Source of the DNA: Fusobacteriota bacterium
GTDB taxonomy: Bacteria; Bacillota; TC1
Direction: 5' to 3'
NCBI GenBank assembly: GCA_009773805.1
Contig: WTXA01000002.1
Span: forward strand, 186,001 to 250,000
DNA: 64,000 nt
In this document: piece after piece, positions 6,277 to 59,788 of the stretch
Layout: each line of letters starts with the position of its first letter
Numbering within the stretch: the first letter of the stretch is position 1
Program-made: the position numbers and the translations under genes
The notes under the pieces: generated by a model
Told to the model about the DNA's origin: nothing
The model's database searches: none
Seen by the model: the letters and a program-made list of their open reading frames with translations, nothing else

Positions 6277-7797
6277 ATGAACACAAAACTAGCAGAAAAT
6301 TTAAAGAAAATAAGAAAAGACCACAACCTATCACAAGAACAACTAGCAGAAGAACTAAAAGTATCCAGACAAGCCATCTCCAAATGGGAATCAGGCAACA
6401 CCTACCCTGAAATGGACAAGATACTACAAATCTGCAACAAATTCAATCTGGACATAAACGACCTACTAAACAACGACATCAGAGAAATCAAATCAGAACA
6501 ACAAACAAAAAACAACATCAACAAATACATAGACGACTTCCTAAACTTCATTAGCAAAACCTTCAATATGTTCGTAGGCTTTAGTACAAAAACAAAACTA
6601 AAATGCCTCTTCGAACAAGCAATAATCATAACCCTACTACTAATAACATTTGGCATAATAGGCACAGTCTTCAATAACCTATTCAGCAACATAATACAAA
6701 TACTACCAGACAGGATATACCAAATACTATATTCCATAGTACAATCAATCTTTGATATAGTATCCCTAATCTTTGGTATCATAATCTGGCTCCATATATT
6801 CAAAACAAGATACATAGACTACTATGAAATAGTCACAGATAATATTGAAGTTGGAAATGGGAATGAATCTGATACTGGAGCTGAACTTGGAACTGAGAAT
6901 AAAAATCAAAATGTTAATACCAAACAACAACCAAACAACAAGAACCAAAAAATAATACTAAGAGACCCAAAACACAGTGAATACAAATTCATCAACGGAC
7001 TACTAAAAGCAATAGTTGGAATAATAAAAATCTGGGCCCTTATAACATTAGTATCCATAGGCTTTATTCTAATTAGCTTAGTTGTAGGAGTAGTACTAAC
7101 ATTCCTAATAACTAAAACAGGAGTATTCTTCCTTGGTACCTTGATTACCCTACTAGCTGCCATAGCAATAACAGTAATAGTCGAACTAATACTACTCAAC
7201 TTTGTATTCAATAGACAAAACAAAAAGAAAATTATGATCTGGACCTTCCTTATTAGTCTAATAATAGCAGGCGTTGGTTCTGGTTTAATGTTTGTTGGTT
7301 CCTTAGATTTTGAAATAAGTGATGGTAAAGAGTTAATGATAAGCCAATCAATGGAATTAGAAATGTATGATAACCTAGTTATTAGTAATATTATAGAAAA
7401 TGAAATAGAATACATTGAAACTAACAATCAAAATATAAAAATCGAATACCTACTAAATAAGCATAGCTCATCAAACTATGACATATATGATGAAGCTGAA
7501 TACAAAAAGATATATATCTATAGCGAAAACCCTGAGATCTTTAAACTGATGAAAGAATCTATAAACTACTTAAATGATAAGAAATTACTAAGTCAAAATA
7601 GCCAATTATCAGATATTAAAATCTATACTACCAAAGAAAACATAGAAAAACTAAAAGCTAATATTGAAGCCTTGGATGTTAAGTATAATCTGGTCAGTAA
7701 TTATGAAACTAAGATACAAAACCTTGATAGCAAGATAGCTGAGCAAGAAGCAACCATTAATGAATTAAACTTTGAATTAGAATCATATAGGAAATAA
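6277..7797 (+). CDS. XRE-family regulator fused to a membrane domain and coiled coil
   Basis: Protein of 506 aa. Residues 1-65 are a Cro/C1-type HTH (LSQEQLAEELKVSRQAISKWESGNTYPEMDKI). Two transmembrane helices follow around 105-170, then a charged linker rich in N, Q and E (190-225), then three helices (about 240-350). The C-terminal 150 residues are soluble and end in a coiled coil (NLDSKIAEQEATINELNFELESY). This layout suggests a membrane-tethered transcription factor that senses an envelope signal, which is inference. It is a single gene with its own terminator. Confidence 0.75.
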   Translation: MNTKLAENLKKIRKDHNLSQEQLAEELKVSRQAISKWESGNTYPEMDKILQICNKFNLDINDLLNNDIREIKSEQQTKNNINKYIDDFLNFISKTFNMFVGFSTKTKLKCLFEQAIIITLLLITFGIIGTVFNNLFSNIIQILPDRIYQILYSIVQSIFDIVSLIFGIIIWLHIFKTRYIDYYEIVTDNIEVGNGNESDTGAELGTENKNQNVNTKQQPNNKNQKIILRDPKHSEYKFINGLLKAIVGIIKIWALITLVSIGFILISLVVGVVLTFLITKTGVFFLGTLITLLAAIAITVIVELILLNFVFNRQNKKKIMIWTFLISLIIAGVGSGLMFVGSLDFEISDGKELMISQSMELEMYDNLVISNIIENEIEYIETNNQNIKIEYLLNKHSSSNYDIYDEAEYKKIYIYSENPEIFKLMKESINYLNDKKLLSQNSQLSDIKIYTTKENIEKLKANIEALDVKYNLVSNYETKIQNLDSKIAEQEATINELNFELESYRK

Positions 7798-7813
7798 AGT
7801 AGATAGAATAAAA

Positions 7814-7848
7814 AGAACACCTCCAAATTAATCATTTGGAGGTGTTCT
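7814..7848 (+). terminator. Terminator of the membrane XRE gene
   Basis: AGAACACCTCCAAA pairs with TTTGGAGGTGTTCT (14 bp), followed by CTCATTTTTG, just after the stop codon. Confidence 0.9.
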
Positions 7849-7890
7849 CTCATTTTTGTTCCTTTATAGTTTTAAGTTTTTGTCTATTCT

Positions 7891-8283
7891 TTAATTTAGA
7901 ATGTACCCTAGAGCATCAGGAAAAAATATGTGCAACAGAAGCAATAGAACTGTCAGACCTGCAATTCTCTTATGCCACAAAAAAAGAACTTTTTTTCTAA
8001 GCCTATAGAAACTTCCTCCAAGTGTTGCAGTTATTACTAGAGATAAGTAGAACAGACTTCCTGTATGTAACCTGAAACCCCCTAGGGCCATGTAACCATG
8101 GATAGGACCTAGTACTGCTAGAGCAAGCCCAAGAGGTTTGTGGATTGTCTTAAAAAGTTTCTGAATTTTCTTAAACATCTTATTATCGGTTTTGATAAGC
8201 TTCCTATTAGTGTAGTTTAGCAGAAATTGTCCAAGTATAAGGACCAATAGGGTTATATTTATCCAGCCTAGTATTTTATACAT
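7891..8283 (-). CDS. Four-helix membrane protein, possibly cytochrome-like
   Basis: 130 aa with four hydrophobic segments and several histidines at helix edges (IHKPLG, IHGYMALGGFRLHTG, LWHKR, LLHIFFP). The spacing of histidines recalls b-type cytochrome or ferric-reductase-like membrane domains, but I cannot confirm heme binding. AGGAGGG precedes the ATG. It is the last gene of a small minus-strand group headed by an XRE regulator. Confidence 0.5.
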   Translation of the reverse strand: MYKILGWINITLLVLILGQFLLNYTNRKLIKTDNKMFKKIQKLFKTIHKPLGLALAVLGPIHGYMALGGFRLHTGSLFYLSLVITATLGGSFYRLRKKVLFLWHKRIAGLTVLLLLLHIFFPDALGYILN

Positions 8284-27562: not shown

Positions 27563-27635
27563 TTTGGCAACTGGCTGCCATATTAAAGGCCCTCTAGTTT
27601 TGCGTCGCTATTTTTCAATAGTTTTGCTCTTATCA
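27563..27635 (-). promoter_or_regulatory. c-di-GMP-I (GEMM-I) riboswitch
   Basis: The minus strand carries the aptamer hallmarks in order: GCAAAACTATTGAAAAATAG (GAAA-type tetraloop arm), GACGCAAA, the GGGCCT block, GGCAGCC and AGTTGCC. A T tract follows (GGTGG then seven T) but the terminator stem is weak. It precedes only the decayed GGDEF gene, then the HD-GYP gene about 400 bases further on. Confidence 0.85.
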
Positions 27636-27746
27636 TTATTGGTCTGGGAATAATTATTTTTTATTTTATATTTATATTAATTAATTTAAGTATTACTTAA
27701 TTTGATTATATAATCTTTATTTTATATTTACAATCATTATATAAAA

Positions 27747-44453: not shown

Positions 44454-44804
44454 TTAAAAACTTAATAATTTATCTGTATCCTCGGTCATTTCAGCCAATT
44501 CAAGCATACTGCTTCTATCAGCACCTTTGATCAACATATCTATGCTAAGACCCCTAGCATCCATACAAGATCCTCAAACTTTTACCTTGCCTTTTTTTAC
44601 AATAACACTTTTTAACATACTACCCATATTATAGTAGCCATCTGGTGTCTTTTGATTATTGATTGCATTAACAACCCCATCACCTACTAGTGAAATACTA
44701 ACTTGTGCATCTTCTCTCTTTTGAATAGCCATTGCCAACCTTAGAGCATTATATGCTCTTTCATTGCCATAAGGTCCATCGTTGATAATAAATAGATACT
44801 TCAT
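44454..44804 (-). CDS. DsrE-family selenoprotein (TGA = Sec77)
   Basis: 116 aa small sulfur-relay-type protein of the DsrE/DsrF-like fold: MKYLFIINDGPYGNERAYNA, LRLAMAIQKRED and VSISLVGDGVVNAINNQKTP, then KGKVKV-U-GSCMDARGLSI and ...ELAEMTEDTDKLLSF. The TGA at 44574-44576 falls where relatives have the active Cys (xxCGSCMDARG), giving a UxxC redox pair. The frame stays open for 39 further conserved-looking codons. ATGCTA-GGGGTCT-TAGCAT forms a hairpin whose loop begins 19 bases after TGA, as expected for a bacterial SECIS. It is last in the nifS-arsR-membrane protein operon. Likely carries sulfur or selenium as a per(seleno)sulfide; this is inference. Confidence 0.85.
44536..44576 (-). promoter_or_regulatory. 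bSECIS-like hairpin in the DsrE-family gene
   Basis: Starting at the UGA, a 13-base spacer leads to a 6-bp stem ATGCTA/TAGCAT with a G-rich seven-base loop (GGGGTCT). Distance and loop fit bacterial selenocysteine insertion elements read by SelB. Confidence 0.65.
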
Positions 44805-44822
44805 AATTAACTCACAACCTTT

Positions 44823-45962
44823 CTAATTTTGTTTTACACTTATAGTCTTAAAAAATTTACTAAAGACAATAAAATAAACAATTGTACCAGCCAATATACT
44901 CAAATAATTGAAAATATTTATTGGCCAAAATTCAAAATACAAACCTTGTACGTAAACTCCCAACACTTGAGAGCCAACAAATGCTCAAACCATACCCCAT
45001 TGCGTTGGAGCAAAATCACTTTTAATAAACTTGTTTTTGAAGTAGTCGATTATTAAATACACTACAAAAACACCCCAGGCTATAGTTACAATATATGAAA
45101 AGATCAATACAATAAACGATAACCCCTTAAGTTCAATATTTAAAAATACACCACAAAAGCTAAAAATCCTGTATAAGCTTAATCCAAAAAGACACATTAT
45201 CGGTATAACCAGAAAAAATGATGGGATTATAGAATCTTCCGGTAACTTCCCAGCTTTTATCTGCAAATATACCAGATATATTATCTTAATGACAAATAAT
45301 ATAATACCAATTGAAATTGTGACTAATGATAAAAAGGCTGCCATAGACGCTATCCGGCTATTAATAGACATCGCAGCAATCCCTGAACCAGTCAAACTCA
45401 CCAAGGCAAAAGAAAAAACATCCAACAACCATACAAAGTTAAATTTAGATCTATCAATTTCTTTTGAAAGCCATATTTTCAATGCTTTCATTTCTAAAAT
45501 CAATAATGATACCAATAAAAGACCAAACAATACCATTGAAGGCAGCATATAGCTTTGTAATTTAGAAGATATATCAGAAATAAAAAATCCTAACGATCCC
45601 CAGAATACGTTGGCTGACATTGCTAATGAAGAAATTGGAACAAACAACCAAACATTTTTATATGGGTCACCTATCAAATCATTCATCTCTTTGCCGTTAA
45701 TAATCCATTTAATCAATTTTGCCAGGAAAATGAATGTCAAAACAAAATGGATAATTACAAATAATAACATTATACCAACTAAAATCATATTCTTGGTAAA
45801 TTCAAAAAGCGAAAAACTATTCCACATTATATCTGAAATTACAACTAATCCTTTTTCATGTGGGATAGAGAACTGTAAAAAATTAAAAGCCATCAATGCA
45901 ACTCCACCTGCTGCCAATGATGCTTGAAATAATAAGGGATTGAACTTTAAGTTTATTTTCAT
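44823..45962 (-). CDS. Multi-pass membrane selenoprotein (TGA = Sec326), TsoY-like
   Basis: 379 aa when TGA at 44985-44987 is read as Sec. About nine helices precede the sequence DFAPTQWGMV-U-AFVGSQVLGVYVQGLYFEF, then a last helix (NIFNYLSILAGTIVYFIVFS) and a real TAG. Without readthrough, the protein would lose its last helices. GGCTCTC-AAGTGTT-GGGAGTT can form a SECIS-like hairpin with its loop 17 bases after TGA. The pattern (QWG..C..VG..VLG) resembles TDT/SLAC1-type channel-like proteins. I recall a RefSeq family named TsoY (seleno)protein with this look but cannot check it. It lies 27 bases after arsR and 18 before the DsrE-family gene. Transport or redox handling of a sulfur or selenium species is inferred. 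Confidence 0.82.
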
Positions 45963-45989: not shown

Positions 45990-46325
45990 TTATTCCATCA
46001 TTTCTTTAATATCTTTTATTATCTTCATCTGTTTTGTCATCTGTTCGACCATAGCCTCTCTCATCAATATACAAGCCTGTAAAGTCTTTGGATTGCCAAT
46101 GCTATAGTAGATTTTATTGCCTTCTCTTCTGGAATTAACTACACAAGACTCTCTCATCACTGCAAGATGTTGAGAAATATTAGGAACATTTACCTTCATA
46201 GCTGATGCAAGTTCATCAACACACATTTCCTTTTCACCCAACAAGAATATTATTTCAATTCTTTTAGCATTGGCCATAAACTTACAAAAATCTGCATGTA
46301 TTCTATATAATTCTTTATTATCCAT
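45990..46325 (-). CDS. ArsR/SmtB family transcriptional regulator
   Basis: 111 aa winged-helix repressor: HADFCKFMANAKRIEIIFLLGEKEMCVDELASAMKVNVPNISQHLAVMRESCVVNSRREGNKIYYSIG. Cys14 and Cys50 could form a thiol- or persulfide-sensing pair, as in the SqrR/BigR subgroup, rather than a classical metal site (no CxC in the recognition helix). Its place between a cysteine desulfurase and two selenoproteins supports sensing of reactive sulfur; this is inference. A 24-bp palindrome before the operon is its likely operator. Confidence 0.85.
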   Translation of the reverse strand: MDNKELYRIHADFCKFMANAKRIEIIFLLGEKEMCVDELASAMKVNVPNISQHLAVMRESCVVNSRREGNKIYYSIGNPKTLQACILMREAMVEQMTKQMKIIKDIKEMME

Positions 46326-46340
46326 TATTGCTCCTCTATA

Positions 46341-47453
46341 TTACTTGATTATATTAGTCAACTTTTCAACTACAATATCTATTTCTTCTCTAGTAGTATA
46401 TCTACCAAGACTAAATCTAACAGCACCACGTCCAATATCTGCCGATACTCCCATAGCACTAAGCACAGGAGAAATAGTAGTCATTCCTGAATGACATGCT
46501 GAACCTGTAGAGGCAAGAACATCATCAAGCTTATCTAAAATTTCATGTCCATTAAAACCTATAAAGCTAACATTCAAGGTATTAGGAAGTTTTTTATCAG
46601 GATGGCCATTTAAATGAATAATATCCCCGAAGTTTTCAACAAGTCGTTTGTAAAAGTAATCAGTATTTTCCTTAATGACATTATTTCCAAGGTTTATTCT
46701 TGCAATTTCACAAGCCTTACCAAGTCCTACCTCTAGAATTATATTTTCAGTACCTGCTCTTCTGCCCTTTTCATGTCCAGCTCCATGTATCAATGGTTCA
46801 ATACTTATGCCGGTTCTTATATATAGAGCCCCGATGCCTTTAGGTCCATATAGTTTATGACCTGCCACTGTAAGAAAATCTACATTTAGATTCTTAACAT
46901 CAATTGGTACCTTACCTAAAGATTGTGATGCATCGGTATGGAATAAAACTCCATTTTTCTTACATATGTCAGCAATTTCCTCTATAGGTTGTATAGTTCC
47001 TGTTTCGTTATTCGAATGCATGATACTTACAAGTATTGTTTTATCATTAATTAATTCTTCTATATCGGTTGGATTGACCAATCCTAGTTCATCAACCTTT
47101 ACATAACTCACTTCATATCCTAGCTTTTCTAAATATCTGCAAGGATTAATTATAGCCGGATGCTCTATTTTTGAAGTTATGATATGGTTACCTTTCTTCT
47201 TGTATGTATGGGCAACTCCCTTTAATACAGTGTTATTGGATTCACTCCCTCCACTGGTGAATATTATTTCATCAACGGATGCGTTCAACAAATCTGCTAC
47301 TTGGTGTCTGGCTTTCTCAATTTCTCTCTTAGCCTCGATTCCTAATACATGAATACTTGATGGATTTCCGAAATGTCCATATAAGAAGGGGAGCATAGTG
47401 TCTGCTACTTCTTTATCTATTGGAGTTGTGGCATTATAATCTAAATAAATCAT
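46341..47453 (-). CDS. NifS/IscS-type cysteine desulfurase
   Basis: 370 aa PLP enzyme that removes sulfur from cysteine (or selenium from selenocysteine) to form an enzyme persulfide. Patterns: YLDYNATTPIDKEV, GNPSSIH, FTSGGSESNN, SIMHSNNETG, the PLP lysine in VAGHKLYGPKG, GRRAGTENI and the active-site loop STGSACHSG (Cys ~325). First gene of the operon, with TAGGAGG before the ATG. It probably supplies sulfur to the DsrE-family partner rather than to a nearby Fe-S scaffold, since no iscU/nifU is present. Confidence 0.92.
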   Translation of the reverse strand: MIYLDYNATTPIDKEVADTMLPFLYGHFGNPSSIHVLGIEAKREIEKARHQVADLLNASVDEIIFTSGGSESNNTVLKGVAHTYKKKGNHIITSKIEHPAIINPCRYLEKLGYEVSYVKVDELGLVNPTDIEELINDKTILVSIMHSNNETGTIQPIEEIADICKKNGVLFHTDASQSLGKVPIDVKNLNVDFLTVAGHKLYGPKGIGALYIRTGISIEPLIHGAGHEKGRRAGTENIILEVGLGKACEIARINLGNNVIKENTDYFYKRLVENFGDIIHLNGHPDKKLPNTLNVSFIGFNGHEILDKLDDVLASTGSACHSGMTTISPVLSAMGVSADIGRGAVRFSLGRYTTREEIDIVVEKLTNIIK

Positions 47454-48577: not shown

Positions 48578-49633
48578 TTAAACAACACTATTCATTCGAA
48601 ATAATGAAGGATACCAAATAAGCCCCATAACTCCAATATAAAATACATTTAAAAACTTAAATAACATATCACTATTAGGTTCATTTACTGTTTTACTGCT
48701 TATAGCAACTTCGTTTTGTCCACTTGCTATTTCTGTTGCACTAATAGTAGTATTTTCTACAGGTTTAGTTTCTTGTATTGCTATACTATTTGTTTCGTTT
48801 TCTACTGGTTTAGTTTGTTGTACTGTTGTACTACTAATAGTTTTTGCTATTGGTTTAGTTTGTACTGTTGGAGTAGCAGTTGTATTTTCTACTGGTTTAG
48901 TTTGTACAGTTGGTGTAGTTGTAGTATTTTCAACTTGCTTTGGTTGCACAACTGTTGTAGGATTAAGCCCTTCTATAATTGCTTTTGTATATTTATAGAA
49001 TTCAGCAGTTTTTGTATTTCTGCCTGATGATGTTAGACTAGAAAAAAAACTTGCTCTTTGTGCTGTTGATAACTCTATTTGCACTCCAGCATTTCTTGAA
49101 TTTTTATTTACTATATTTGATGTACTTGTTCCTCCTAAATTTGAAGGAGCAGTAGCTACTGCAAAACCTGCATTTTGCAAACTTATTGTAATATTAGCGA
49201 CCATTGTTTTATCAAGTCCACCAACATAAGTTAGTTTAGATGAACCTGAAAATCCATGAATTGATAAGGTTCTACTTTTACTTTGAACCAAGGAAATTGC
49301 TATAGGTTCATCAAATATTGTTGAAGTTATATGTAATGAGCTATTATTACTGCTCATTATTCCTTGGAATGAATAATAACTATAACTTAATCCAGCAATA
49401 TTATCAGCTAGTTCTGTAGTTCCAGGTTCAATTCCTCCTCCATGAATGGCAATTATTGCCAAATTTGAAGAGTTTTCACGACTGCTAATTTTATAGTCGG
49501 TTCCTTCAACTTTTGCTGCTGAAAGTTCCTGAAAATTAGAATACAAATCAGCTGCTTTTACTGTTGTTATATTTACAGAAAATAGAAGTAAACTGATAGT
49601 TACTACTATAAATCCAGCTTTTAAGATTCTCAT
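48578..49633 (-). CDS. Secreted poly-gamma-glutamate hydrolase-family protein with repeat stalk and C-terminal anchor
   Basis: 351 aa. Signal peptide (MRILKAGFIVVTISLLLF...VKA), then a zinc-peptidase domain of the PghP/YmaC (DUF867) type: LAIIAIHGGGIEPGTTELA (H, E ligands), YSYYSFQGI, LHITSTIFDEP and RTLSIHGFSG. A stalk of about five VQTKPVENTT-like repeats (about 225-305) leads to a hydrophobic C-terminal segment (FLNVFYIGVMGLIWYPSLF). The repeats and tail suggest display at the cell surface. The start MRILK is chosen since GAGGGAG overlaps the ATG three codons earlier. Two c-di-GMP-I riboswitches with terminators precede it. No capsule genes are nearby. Confidence 0.8.
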   Translation of the reverse strand: MRILKAGFIVVTISLLLFSVNITTVKAADLYSNFQELSAAKVEGTDYKISSRENSSNLAIIAIHGGGIEPGTTELADNIAGLSYSYYSFQGIMSSNNSSLHITSTIFDEPIAISLVQSKSRTLSIHGFSGSSKLTYVGGLDKTMVANITISLQNAGFAVATAPSNLGGTSTSNIVNKNSRNAGVQIELSTAQRASFFSSLTSSGRNTKTAEFYKYTKAIIEGLNPTTVVQPKQVENTTTTPTVQTKPVENTTATPTVQTKPIAKTISSTTVQQTKPVENETNSIAIQETKPVENTTISATEIASGQNEVAISSKTVNEPNSDMLFKFLNVFYIGVMGLIWYPSLFRMNSVV

Positions 49634-49659
49634 AAGTTTCATCTCCCTCTAAATAAAAA

Positions 49660-49692: not shown

Positions 49693-49719
49693 GTAAAACA
49701 TTTATCTTCCAAATATATA

Positions 49720-49800
49720 TCGGCAACTCGGCTACCTTAGTCTTTCGACCTTAGGTCCGTGGCTTTGCGTCTCCAACTTTCGTTGAATTTGCTCTTTTCT
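49720..49800 (-). promoter_or_regulatory. c-di-GMP-I riboswitch, gene-proximal copy
   Basis: The minus strand carries GAGCAAATTCAACGAAAGTT, GGAGACGCAAAGCC, ACGGACCTAAGGTC, a GAAA loop and AAGGTAGCCGAGTTGCCGA, matching the GEMM-I consensus in every arm (GAAA tetraloop and receptor, GACGCAAAGCC, GTAGCC.AGTTGCC). Confidence 0.95.
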
Positions 49801-49856
49801 TTTTTTCTTTACACTTCTTAAATGAAGTATCATTTAAGATATTATTTTAATAAAAA

Positions 49857-49910: not shown

Positions 49911-49992
49911 CTTTCGGCAACTCGGCTACCATAGTCTTTATGACCTTAGGCCCTTGGTTTTGCGTCCTCAATTTTCGTTGAGTTTGCTCTTT
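49911..49992 (-). promoter_or_regulatory. c-di-GMP-I riboswitch, distal copy
   Basis: Minus strand: GAGCAAACTCAACGAAAATT, GAGGACGCAAAACC, AAGGGCCTAAGGTC, ATAAAGACTATGGTAGCC and GAGTTGCCGAAAG. It is a second full GEMM-I aptamer, about 110 bases upstream of the first and with its own terminator. Confidence 0.94.
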
Positions 49993-50156
49993 TCTTTGTA
50001 ATCGAATCTTAACACATTTCTTATTAAAATGCAATGATTTTGATAAGAATAATTATATATAATTGGATAGTAATGGTTTTGTATAGTCATTCCTTAAAAC
50101 CCATATGCATACTTGTTTCTTTTTATGCATTTGATCCTTGATTATATATATATAGT

Positions 50157-52341: not shown

Positions 52342-53211
52342 TCAAATAAACAACCCCAACACAAACCCTACAAACAAAACCAACAATACCAAACAACCAA
52401 CATTACCAGCACCACCACCAACAAAACCCAACACAAACGACCACCAATCAAAACCAGACAAAAAACCAGAAGTAGCCACAGAAGAACTACCACCTACACC
52501 AAAACCCCGACTACCCAACAAACCACCAAAACCCCTAACACCACTACCACTACCGAAACCATTACCCCCACTCACATTACCACCATAACTACTTATCCTC
52601 CCAACACTACGAACACTACCCACATCGTTACTCACACTATCACCCACACAAACAGAACCAAACAACCTAACCACACCCAAAAAGGATGAAATACTAAAAC
52701 TATTCCCCAAAGCCTCCAACCTATCCAAATAATCCATAAACCAAGACTCACCACTAAACACTGACCCAAACAAAGAAAGAACACCACCCCAAAAATCACC
52801 CTTATAAAAAGGACAATAAACCAAACCACAACCATCCATAGAATAAACTATCGACTCAGGACTAATATAGAAAGACGATAGATCAAAAAAATACTCAGAA
52901 CTCACAAAATCAACACGCTCCAATATAGAAACAAAATCATCAACCCCAAAACCACCATCACCCCTGTCTAACCTCTCACCCAAGCTATACCCACCCTCAA
53001 GATCATAAACAAAAACAAAATCCAAATTCTCCCTATAAAAATAAACAGGAAGCAGAAACTCCACACCCCCACCCTTCAACAAATAAGCATCACGACCAAC
53101 CAACTCCCCCCTTCCCCTATAAACCAAACTAAAACCCTCAACACAAAACTCATCCAACACCCTACCAACACCAAAACTAGAACCACCCATACCACTCACA
53201 CTACTACCCAT
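52342..53211 (-). CDS. DUF6382-like protein of a Tad-type pilus cluster
   Basis: 289 aa. N-terminal soluble domain (YRENLDFVFVYDLEGGYSLGERLDRGDGGFGVDDFVSILERV, about 45-100) resembles the DUF6382 domain seen in clostridial Tad loci. A Gly/Ser/Val-rich linker (about 195-255) leads to one C-terminal helix (GCLVLLVLFVGFVLGLFI). The start follows AGGAGG by eight bases and touches the TadE-like stop. The role is unknown; it may link pseudopilins to the assembly machine. Confidence 0.55.
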   Translation of the reverse strand: MGSSVSGMGGSSFGVGRVLDEFCVEGFSLVYRGRGELVGRDAYLLKGGGVEFLLPVYFYRENLDFVFVYDLEGGYSLGERLDRGDGGFGVDDFVSILERVDFVSSEYFFDLSSFYISPESIVYSMDGCGLVYCPFYKGDFWGGVLSLFGSVFSGESWFMDYLDRLEALGNSFSISSFLGVVRLFGSVCVGDSVSNDVGSVRSVGRISSYGGNVSGGNGFGSGSGVRGFGGLLGSRGFGVGGSSSVATSGFLSGFDWWSFVLGFVGGGAGNVGCLVLLVLFVGFVLGLFI

Positions 53212-53636
53212 CACCACAACCTCCTCTCATAAAAATCCACCACCACAACCCGACCAAGAAGCACCACATCAACACCATACTCAACCCTAACAGTCATATA
53301 ACCACCATCAAAATCCGAACTAACCACCAACCTATCACCATCAAGAAAACCACCCTCAAGAAGATAACTCCTAACAAAAGCCCGACTACCCCAACTTGCA
53401 GCAACCTCCACTACATCATCAGCCACACCATCCAACAACAAACCATCAACACTACAAACATAAGCCCCATAACTATCAACCCTCTGCCTAATAAAAGATG
53501 ACACAGAAAAAAAATTAATAAACGAGACAAAAGAGAACAGAAGCACCATAACCATAGGAAACACCACAACCCCCTCAATAACCAAAGAACCCCTCTCCTC
53601 AATTAAAAGACAACGAAACAACCTCCTCAAAAACAA
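53211..53636 (-). CDS. TadE-like pseudopilin
   Basis: About 141 aa. A short cytoplasmic N-terminus (CLLIEERGSLVIEGVVVFP) with the Tad-type GSxxxE pattern leads into one helix (MVMVLLFSFVSFINFF) and a small extracytoplasmic domain. This is the TadE minor pilin design. No ATG is well placed; a TTG at 53636 has GGGG eight bases upstream, but the start is uncertain. It overlaps the end of the TadG-like gene. Confidence 0.6.
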   Translation of the reverse strand: MFLRRLFRCLLIEERGSLVIEGVVVFPMVMVLLFSFVSFINFFSVSSFIRQRVDSYGAYVCSVDGLLLDGVADDVVEVAASWGSRAFVRSYLLEGGFLDGDRLVVSSDFDGGYMTVRVEYGVDVVLLGRVVVVDFYERRLW

Positions 53637-55047
53637 AACAACCACCCCTAATCTCACCACCAAACAACCGAGTCCCCTCAGGCAAAAACTTAAGAAACGT
53701 TAGCCCTAAACTACCCTTAACACTACCCCTAGCACCACAAAAATATGCCCCAGGAAAATCCCTTATAACCTCACCATAAATACCCTTAAGCAAACACTCC
53801 TCACCAGCCAAGAGAGAAAACATCAGAAGATGATCCCTATAAGACAACTTCAAAAACTCCAAAGGATTTGGCGTACCATAAACATTAACCACAGGCACCC
53901 TGGCATCATTAACCCCCACCAAAGACAACACATCAGAAACCCCAGTACCAAGACCCAACACCACACTATACACTAACCTAGACACAAGTTCAGGAGGAGC
54001 CTTAGCATCAAGTACAAAATAACCAACACCATCAACAAAAGTCCTAAACAACAAAATATTAAAGAGCGTACCTATTGTCGAACCATTACCAATAATCCGC
54101 TCAGCTTCACCTATACTACCTCCCACACTCCCACCACTACCAACATCACCAACAACAGACGATAGATTAGAAAACCTCTCCAAAACATACTCCCCCAACA
54201 ACAAATCATCCCGAAGCCCCTCCAAACCAGCACCAAGACGATTCTTCAAACCACCTCCAACCTCCTTAGCCCTAAAAAACAAAAACCCAGGACTTTTCAG
54301 TTCTTTCTCATAACTACCTAACTCACCACCAAAAAGCTCACCCAACTTCTTCCAAGTATCTTCACCAATCTGTTCACTATCGCTAGCTCCATCACTACTA
54401 CCACTACCACCATCAGTATTTGACAAATCCTCAGCCATCACTAAAAGAGACCTATTCTCCCCATACAACTTTTCAATACTAGCATCAAGACCAGCCTCAC
54501 CACCAGCTCGCCTCTCCTCCAAACCCTTAATAACCTCCACATTAGAAGCAACCCTCTCCTGCATCCTCTTAGTAGCCGCCTCCTTACTGCCACCAAAATC
54601 CCCAAAATCAGCACCAAGCTTATCCACCTCCTCCATCGCCGAAAAAATACCATAAACCTGCTTCCCAAGATTAACCAAACCCCTAACCTTCATCTCCTCC
54701 AAAATTTGCTTCTTTAAAATACGAGAATCAGAAAGAGGCTGCTCTAATATTAAGGAGAAGTTTTTCAGAGTTACTCCCTTACCCTTCACATTATTCCTAA
54801 CCATAGAAGAAAAATCCAAACCATACTCCTTACCCTTCAAGGCAAAAAGACCATAACGACCATACAAATCCTTATCATAATCAGCCAAAACACTATCCAC
54901 ACTACTATAAACACCCTCATTAACCACATTCATCGCATACTTAACCCTAACCACATCAAAAAGCACCCCGAAAAAAAGAACCAATACCGGAAATACTATT
55001 GCCATAAACAAAACCAAAGAACCACCCTCATCATCCCACAACCTCAT
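53599..55047 (-). CDS. TadG-like / DUF5702 pilus-associated protein
   Basis: 482 aa. N-terminus MRLWDDEGGSLVLFMAIVFP with one helix, then RVKYAMNVVNEGVYSSVDSVLADYDKDLYGRYGLFAL, which matches DUF5702 (TadG-like) proteins. A long extracytoplasmic region follows with coiled-coil and Gly/Ser-rich parts (about 150-235). GAGGTGG precedes the ATG. Upstream Tad genes (prepilin peptidase, CpaF, TadB/C) are not adjacent. Confidence 0.65.
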   Translation of the reverse strand: MRLWDDEGGSLVLFMAIVFPVLVLFFGVLFDVVRVKYAMNVVNEGVYSSVDSVLADYDKDLYGRYGLFALKGKEYGLDFSSMVRNNVKGKGVTLKNFSLILEQPLSDSRILKKQILEEMKVRGLVNLGKQVYGIFSAMEEVDKLGADFGDFGGSKEAATKRMQERVASNVEVIKGLEERRAGGEAGLDASIEKLYGENRSLLVMAEDLSNTDGGSGSSDGASDSEQIGEDTWKKLGELFGGELGSYEKELKSPGFLFFRAKEVGGGLKNRLGAGLEGLRDDLLLGEYVLERFSNLSSVVGDVGSGGSVGGSIGEAERIIGNGSTIGTLFNILLFRTFVDGVGYFVLDAKAPPELVSRLVYSVVLGLGTGVSDVLSLVGVNDARVPVVNVYGTPNPLEFLKLSYRDHLLMFSLLAGEECLLKGIYGEVIRDFPGAYFCGARGSVKGSLGLTFLKFLPEGTRLFGGEIRGGCFVFEEVVSLSFN

Positions 55048-55153
55048 AAAAAACCACCTCAAAAAAAAATTAGAGAAAAGAACCTAAATTCTTTCCTCTA
55101 ACATATTAATTTATGAAAATATAACCTGAATAATAAAATGATAAAAAATATAA

Positions 55154-55698: not shown

Positions 55699-56733
55699 CT
55701 AAAACAAAACCAATTTAGAATCAGCTGCCTCCACTACCTTACCAATAACAAAAGCCAACTCACCCGCCTCTTCCATTTGTCTAACATACTCACTAGCATC
55801 CTCTGGAGTAAAAGCAAACACCAAACCACCAGAAGTCTCAGGAGTAACCACAGCCAACTCCATAAAATCATCCACCAAATACAAAACCCTATCCTTCACA
55901 TAATCCCTATTCCTATAGGCACCAGCAGGAATAAGACCCTCCCTGGCAAAAGAAAGAGCACTATCAAAAAACGGCAACTTCCTACTATCCACCTCAAAAG
56001 TAACAGCATCATCACCAACCATCTCCAACAAATGACCAACCAAACCAAAACCAGTAATATCAGTACAACTATGAACACCACCAACAACCTTAGCAACCTC
56101 AGCAGCCTTCCTATTTAAAGCAGCCAAAGACTCAGTCACTTCATGTAACTCATCTTTGCTCACAAGAGACTCATCACCCTTAAAAGCAGTAGTCACAAGA
56201 CCAACACCCAACTTCTTAGTTAGTACCAGAACATCACCAACCTTAGCACCACCATTAGTCCAAATATGTTCAGGATGAACAAAACCAGTCACCGAAGCAC
56301 CATACTTAGGCTCCGAATCCTCAACAGTATGACCACCAAGCAAAGCAACCCCAGCCTCCACTAACTTATCAGCACCACCGCGAAGAATCTCCCTTAAAAT
56401 CATAACATCAAGACAACTAATAGGAAAAGTAACCACATTCATAGCAGTCTTAGGCTCACCACCCATAGCATAAACATCTGATAAACTATTAGCAATCGCA
56501 ATCCTACCAAAATCATAAGGATCATCCACCATAGGAGTAAAAAAATCAACAGTCTGAACCAGAGCCAGCTCATCACTAACCCTATATACACCTGCATCAT
56601 CATAAGTCGAACCAGAAACCAGCACAGCCGGATCCTTAAAACTATTCAAACCAGTCAAAACTTGACTCAAGGTCCCCGGACCTATCTTAGAAGCTCAACC
56701 AGCTGCCTTAACCATCTGAGTTAAACGAACCAT
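55699..56733 (-). CDS. selD: Selenophosphate synthetase SelD, Sec13-containing
   Basis: 344 aa enzyme that makes selenophosphate from selenide and ATP. The true N-terminus is MVRLTQMVKAAG-U-ASKIGPGTLSQVL, with TGA (56695-56697) at the place of the catalytic Cys17/Sec of known SelD. The Lys that follows (ASK) and downstream VQTVDFFTPMVDDPYDFGRIAIANSLSDVYAMGG, GGHTVEDSEPKYGASVTG and TSGGLVFAF are conserved. AGGTC-CGGG-GACCT forms a SECIS-like hairpin 16 bases past TGA. AGGAGG lies seven bases before ATG 56733 (ATG 56736 also possible). Naive calling starts at 56670 and loses the active site. Confidence 0.93.
56660..56697 (-). promoter_or_regulatory. bSECIS-like hairpin in selD
   Basis: After UGA and an 11-base spacer, AGGTC pairs with GACCT around a CGGG loop. 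The GG-containing apical loop at 16 bases fits bacterial SECIS rules. Confidence 0.65.
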
Positions 56734-58816: not shown

Positions 58817-59713
58817 TTAATCCTTTTGCTTTAACATAAAATTCAAGAAAGTCTCACTCAAGGGACTTAATGTCTTTAACTTATTATGAATTAAATAAAT
58901 ATTTCGGCTTAAGTCAAAATCATCAACTTCCACGGCTTTAACACAACCTAAGGCTAAACTATCTCCAGCTACCAAGGATGATACAAAAGCCACTGAATTG
59001 GAATTCTTAACTGCTGTAATCGCTGATCTATTACCACTTAACTCTGTAAAATAGGCAAAATTCTTCAATTTTAGACCCTTTGTCTCCATTTTATCCTCTA
59101 ATACTCTTCTAGAAGCCGAACCCTTTTCTCTAACCACTATAGGATATGCTAGCACATCCTTAATACAAACCTTGTCCAACCTAAGTAATGGATGACCATC
59201 CTTGACAATCATAATAACTTTATCCTTTTTAAAAGGTTTGGATTCGATTCTACTATCATCAACCTTCATACCAACAACACCAATATGAATGTCCTCTGAT
59301 ATCAAACTTTCTACAACTTCATCTGAAGATGTTGTAGTAACCATCACATCAGTAGCCGGATAAGCATCCTTAAAACTACTCATATAGGCTGGCAGAATAT
59401 ATTCACCTGGCACAGTACTTGCACCAACTATTAATTTACCTTTTTCCATACATTTCAATTGTTTCATTTCTTCAATCAGCTGTTCATGTGCCTTGATAAT
59501 TTTTTCTGCATAAACATAGAATTGTTTACCTGCTTCAGTAAGCTTGGTCCCTCTTTCTTTTCTTTCGATTAGTTGTAAATCGATTTCACCTTCAAGATTT
59601 TTAATCTGCCAGCTTATTGCAGGTTGAGTCATAAATAGCTCTTTAGCGGCTATAGTAAAGCTTTTCTTTCTGACAACTGTCACAAAAGCTAACAAATGTT
59701 TATAGTTAATCAT
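58817..59713 (-). CDS. LysR family transcriptional regulator
   Basis: 298 aa. N-terminal HTH (INYKHLLAFVTVVRKKSFTIAAKELFMTQPAISWQIKNLEGEIDLQLIERKERGTKLTEAG) and a periplasmic-binding-protein-like effector domain (GKLIVGASTVPGEYILPAYMSSF). This resembles CysL/selenium-metabolism-linked LysR proteins (GASTVPGEYILP). The start MINYKHLL follows AAGGGGAG. It heads the minus-strand group that leads to selD. Confidence 0.88.
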   Translation of the reverse strand: MINYKHLLAFVTVVRKKSFTIAAKELFMTQPAISWQIKNLEGEIDLQLIERKERGTKLTEAGKQFYVYAEKIIKAHEQLIEEMKQLKCMEKGKLIVGASTVPGEYILPAYMSSFKDAYPATDVMVTTTSSDEVVESLISEDIHIGVVGMKVDDSRIESKPFKKDKVIMIVKDGHPLLRLDKVCIKDVLAYPIVVREKGSASRRVLEDKMETKGLKLKNFAYFTELSGNRSAITAVKNSNSVAFVSSLVAGDSLALGCVKAVEVDDFDLSRNIYLIHNKLKTLSPLSETFLNFMLKQKD

Positions 59714-59788
59714 GTAAAAACTCCCCTTCACCACTAAATTTAATATTAAAACTACCACTAATATAATAGCATATAATAGAAAATAATT

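Follow-up and report, generated by a model that had tools for sequence, protein, structure and literature searches.

The window (the whole 64,000-nucleotide stretch of DNA analysed here) carries at 44454..44804 a dsrE-type selenoprotein gene, very probably so on the evidence below. The gene lies on the minus strand, a detail absent from an earlier note on this DNA, and runs from ATG 44804 to TAA 44456-44454, encoding 116 amino acids if the in-frame TGA at 44574..44576 (minus strand, codon 77) is read as selenocysteine (Sec77). The earlier note had placed this TGA in the context KVKV-U-GSCMDARG, where it is indeed found, and reading of the frame bears out the rest of that description: the conventional ORF ends at the TGA after 76 amino acids, and 39 sense codons then follow before the TAA, with no frameshift in this copy of the extension. 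A second conserved cysteine stands three residues past Sec77 (Cys80), and the two residues bound a U-G-S-C redox motif of the UxxC type (44565..44576, minus strand).

The three genes upstream of dsrE lie on the same strand, and nifS-like, arsR, tsoY and dsrE, which follow one another in this order with only 15, 27 and 18 bp between them, form a tight putative operon. Its first gene encodes a NifS/IscS-like cysteine desulfurase (46341..47453, minus strand), for which no selenium-specific family call was obtained, and is followed by an ArsR/SmtB-type regulator (45990..46325, minus strand) and by tsoY (44823..45962, minus strand). The latter is identified as the selenoprotein TsoY by NCBIfam NF047643 (521 bits vs a cut-off of 250), and its product is a SLAC1-like membrane selenoprotein of 379 amino acids with Sec326, which shrinks to 325 amino acids when its own in-frame TGA (44985..44987, minus strand) is taken as a stop. 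A SECIS hairpin with a GTG loop (44955..44975, minus strand) accompanies this TGA and is conserved in tsoY relatives. The TsoY model, of moderate confidence (pLDDT 68), fits the SLAC1/TehA fold, and the sequence profile found no solved relative. A scan for promoters and terminators gave no excess over shuffled sequences, and a plasmid search returned only matches below 60% identity.

At the protein level, the read-through product matches PF02635 over residues 1-116 of 116 (87.0 bits vs a gathering threshold of 22.7, E 1.3e-24), and its AlphaFold2 model, built with 52 relatives, has a pLDDT of 97. Among PDB matches of this model the best is E. coli YchN (1jx7; TM 0.92, 36% identity), also the best solved relative, followed by DsrE (TM 0.90) and then TusD; U77 falls on the cysteine of the YchN VKLC motif, i.e. 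the E. coli protein has Cys where the window protein has Sec. In the model Sec77 closes the strand 73-77, and the part encoded 3′ of the TGA comprises helix 78-83, strand 95-98, helix 100-109 and strand 112-115, about one third of the protein. Because these two helices and two strands lie after the TGA, the 76-residue fragment would be an incomplete fold. A profile alignment places position 77 on TusD Cys78 (the position being counted from the alignment); this cysteine and DsrE-Cys78 are catalytic, and DsrE-Cys78 is persulfidated in A. vinosum (PMC3397948). The fold and the position of the catalytic Cys78 are thus common to the window protein and the TusD/DsrE sulfur relay subunits, but those systems differ in that no TusB/TusC partner genes lie beside the window dsrE. 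Identity as TusD itself was rejected (32.6 bits vs the NCBIfam equivalog cut-off of 89.25).

A scan of a genome collection, from which the best 80 relatives were kept (all full-length or nearly so), shows how the TGA column is occupied elsewhere: Cys in 73 and TGA in seven, with none of these 80 ending at that position; relatives with a natural end there would, according to the earlier note, have refuted it. The alignment with Cys which it had expected is also found, U falling on the invariant cysteine of the relatives. Genome searches within the phylum added four further distinct TGA sequences, and among 398 genomes sampled from the phylum a close match occurs in 11, eight of them with TGA. 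In the tree, the 11 Bacillota Sec sequences form one supported group and the Zixibacteria Sec sequence stands apart, which implies at least two changes between the Cys and Sec states, in a tree of a short protein with many weakly settled forks. This separate Sec DsrE, from Zixibacteria RBG-1 (L104:8001-8351), reads IKLUGNCAEARGL, and selA is present in its genome.

Downstream of the dsrE TGA, a bacterial SECIS hairpin, ATGCTAGG-GGT-CTTAGCAT (6-8 bp), is predicted at 44542..44560 on the minus strand. The 6-bp stem with a G-rich loop described in the earlier note is present (ATGCTA/TAGCAT, loop GGGGTCT, 44560-44542); its stated distance of 19 bases past the TGA holds for the start of the loop but not for the stem, whose 5′ arm lies at 13 nt. 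RNAfold favours an 8-bp stem with a GGU triloop 21 nt past the TGA (-9.8 kcal/mol). The test applied was the set of four published criteria for bacterial SECIS elements (PMC13188914), all of which the window hairpin passes, as does the positive control, E. coli fdhF (sequence confirmed in E. coli genomes); the search for a bSECIS proposed in the earlier note thus succeeds. Equal fold stability is reached by 1% of synonymous recodings of the same peptide, and no SECIS-type family was found by Rfam over the window. Taken alone, these loose criteria are weak, since 4.5% of TGA sites picked at random from the window and 20 of the 73 Cys homologues among the best 80 relatives pass them too, and therefore more weight is carried by the fixed register and covariation of the stem. 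Specifically, all four pairs of the core stem (GCTC/GAGC-type) are kept in fixed register in 10/11 Sec genes vs 4/73 Cys genes, and compensatory changes on both sides occur at three of the six stem pairs among Sec genes. The covariation score was reached by none of 500 shuffles, with no slid register close, although this result is not a probability because the sequences are related. The Zixibacteria Sec dsrE has no hairpin that passes the standard SECIS criteria.

The genome itself contains selA, selB, selD and tRNA-Sec (selC; 67.7 bits), with selB and selA adjoining. In the window, outside the putative operon, selD (55699..56733, minus strand) has an in-frame TGA of its own at 56697-56695 (VKAAGUASK), because of which its start escapes simple ORF finding; further along lies a selenium metabolism-associated LysR regulator (58817..59758, minus strand; NF040786, 261 bits vs a cut-off of 250). 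Across genomes, selA accompanies Sec-type dsrE in 11 of 12 cases, as against one of the six Cys-dsrE genomes checked, and the Sec-dsrE genome in which selA was not found is a MAG with dsrE on a 4.1-kb contig. The window also holds c-di-GMP-I riboswitches, all on the minus strand, at 27563-27638, 49719-49803 and 49913-49998, the last two forming a tandem pair that precedes the gene at 48578-49642, as well as a region (52342-55062, minus strand) of ORFs with TTG/GTG starts and a G-rich strand, whose translations are unusually rich in Gly, Ser and Val.

An in-frame TGA can arise in other ways, one being a nonsense change, or a sequencing error, in a former Cys-type gene. The codon is one base away from TGC/TGT, and the same genome holds a second dsrE copy (C1:36226-36514; L052:9831-10108), 80% identical to the first and wrecked by several frameshifts, with its TGA kept and its hairpin region still recognisable. 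This second copy looks like a decaying gene; the window copy does not. Against its being a pseudogene, this TGA is fixed across genera, in 11 further sequences (53-69% identity), all with full frames, and over the 39 codons after the TGA dN is 0.27-0.37 and dS 0.8-2.0 when compared with the four nearest relatives, i.e. dN is well below dS and selection goes on past the TGA; on these grounds the pseudogene explanation was rejected as very improbable. Reassignment of TGA to Trp or another residue throughout the genome would account for in-frame TGA codons in two neighbouring genes, dsrE and tsoY, but seven genes of the window terminate normally at TGA, the frame beyond it staying open for no more than 18 codons, and Trp is encoded by TGG 126 times. 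As the dsrE TGA also stands at a Cys column in a genome with the full Sec machinery, reassignment is barely credible and was likewise rejected. It is also highly unlikely that the locus makes two products, the 76-residue fragment and a C-terminal peptide started internally: the ATG of MDARG does lie nine bases past the TGA, but the fragment would be short of two of the strands and two of the helices, and all 73 Cys relatives among the best 80 are unsplit.

At the level of sequence, then, these comparisons show that codon 77, the TGA, is translated and does not end the protein, and support the interpretation in the earlier note of a Sec-x-x-Cys motif in a DsrE-family gene with TGA at the cysteine of its relatives. 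The window dsrE is almost certainly a selenoprotein gene of the YchN-like branch of the DsrE family, with Sec predicted at the catalytic Cys position. Its novelty had nevertheless been overstated. DsrE-like UxxC selenoproteins are already published (PMC1088965 in 2005, PMC1794560 in 2006 and, in review, PMC13188914 in 2026), and the window protein bears their mark, a UxxC motif (UGSC) in a PF02635 protein. The DsrE-like selenoprotein of Zhang and co-workers (2005/2006), listed for Desulfovibrio vulgaris and for two sequences from the Sargasso Sea, resembles the present one by description, being a PF02635 protein with UxxC and Sec at the conserved Cys; the accessible parts of those papers mention no TsoY operon, whereas here tsoY adjoins. 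TsoY is attributed, in the accessible part of the review PMC13188914, to Haft and Tolstoy (2025), and the window gene is a clear member of their family, found here in the company of a Sec-type dsrE and of genes for an ArsR-type regulator and a desulfurase. When the genome was compared with the Tso three-selenoprotein operon, TsoA gave no match, but the TsoA model had no match in any control either, and the best score for TsoB was far below its cut-off. No account of a Sec-DsrE/TsoY pairing was found in the accessible literature, and Haft and Tolstoy (2025) may already report one. The DsrE-like UxxC type is thus already known, and it is the TsoY setting that stands out.

This setting recurs. 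At nine of 12 Sec loci, a tsoY that has an in-frame TGA itself is found no more than about 7 kb from dsrE (the other three being L056, L133 and L104, with no tsoY nearby); none was seen beside the 73 Cys-type dsrE loci among the best 80 relatives, for which up to 8 kb of flanking sequence, less at contig ends, was covered. Desulfurase genes adjoin in several of the Sec-dsrE/tsoY loci and selD in others. At two loci (L048:11195-11512 and L049, about 7660-7990) a Sec-type tsoY adjoins a Cys DsrE of another branch (CGTC), which takes the place of the Sec DsrE; this suggests that DsrE and TsoY can be partners whether or not DsrE contains Sec. Loci from Thermincola also hold gcvH, lipS1, lipS2, lplA and lpd, together with QmoC-like/Fe-S subunits beside tsoY. 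One such stretch (L044, 8624-17204) contains selD, dsrE-Sec, gcvH, lipS1, lipS2, lplA, lpd, citrate synthase and tsoY-Sec, and is a lipoate-linked version of the dsrE/tsoY neighbourhood.

As to function, SelB and tRNA-Sec would act at the dsrE TGA through the hairpin directly downstream, placing at position 77 a Sec that would replace the persulfide cysteine of DsrE relatives. The Sec77 selenolate may then accept sulfane sulfur (or selenium) that the nearby NifS-like desulfurase has set free, and Cys80 would be the resolving residue that helps to release the cargo to a partner, which would most likely be TsoY, the membrane selenoprotein of SLAC1/TehA type encoded in this putative operon; TsoY, in turn, would move or reduce a sulfur or selenium anion. 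Such a sulfur/selenium relay from desulfurase to Sec77 DsrE to TsoY is suggested by gene neighbourhood and can be put forward only tentatively; the three Sec-dsrE loci with no nearby tsoY, and the lack of a selenium-specific family call for the NifS-like gene, count against it. More speculative, and rather unlikely, is the fuller proposal that nifS-like, arsR, tsoY-Sec and dsrE-Sec constitute a distinct selenium-dependent module, in which the desulfurase loads Sec77 with sulfur or selenium and Sec77 passes it to Sec326 of TsoY, a Sec-to-Sec relay at the membrane governed by an ArsR-type sensor.

The main rival to a carrier role is a plain redox role, in which the selenoprotein would be a thiol-disulfide partner (reducing either TsoY or oxidised thiols). 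The UxxC motif would suit this, as would the lipoate genes and QmoC-like/Fe-S subunits of the Thermincola loci; on the other hand, in those DsrE/TusD homologues whose function is known the corresponding residue serves in sulfur transfer (PMC3397948), and a desulfurase is the neighbour here. A redox partner is a serious possibility, though one held with less than even confidence.

Gene callers that end every reading frame at TGA cut short both dsrE and tsoY, and the pair is thus easily missed in annotation. The conserved association of these two selenoproteins with a desulfurase offers a testable candidate for selenium-dependent trafficking of sulfur (or selenium), and a handle on the function of TsoY.
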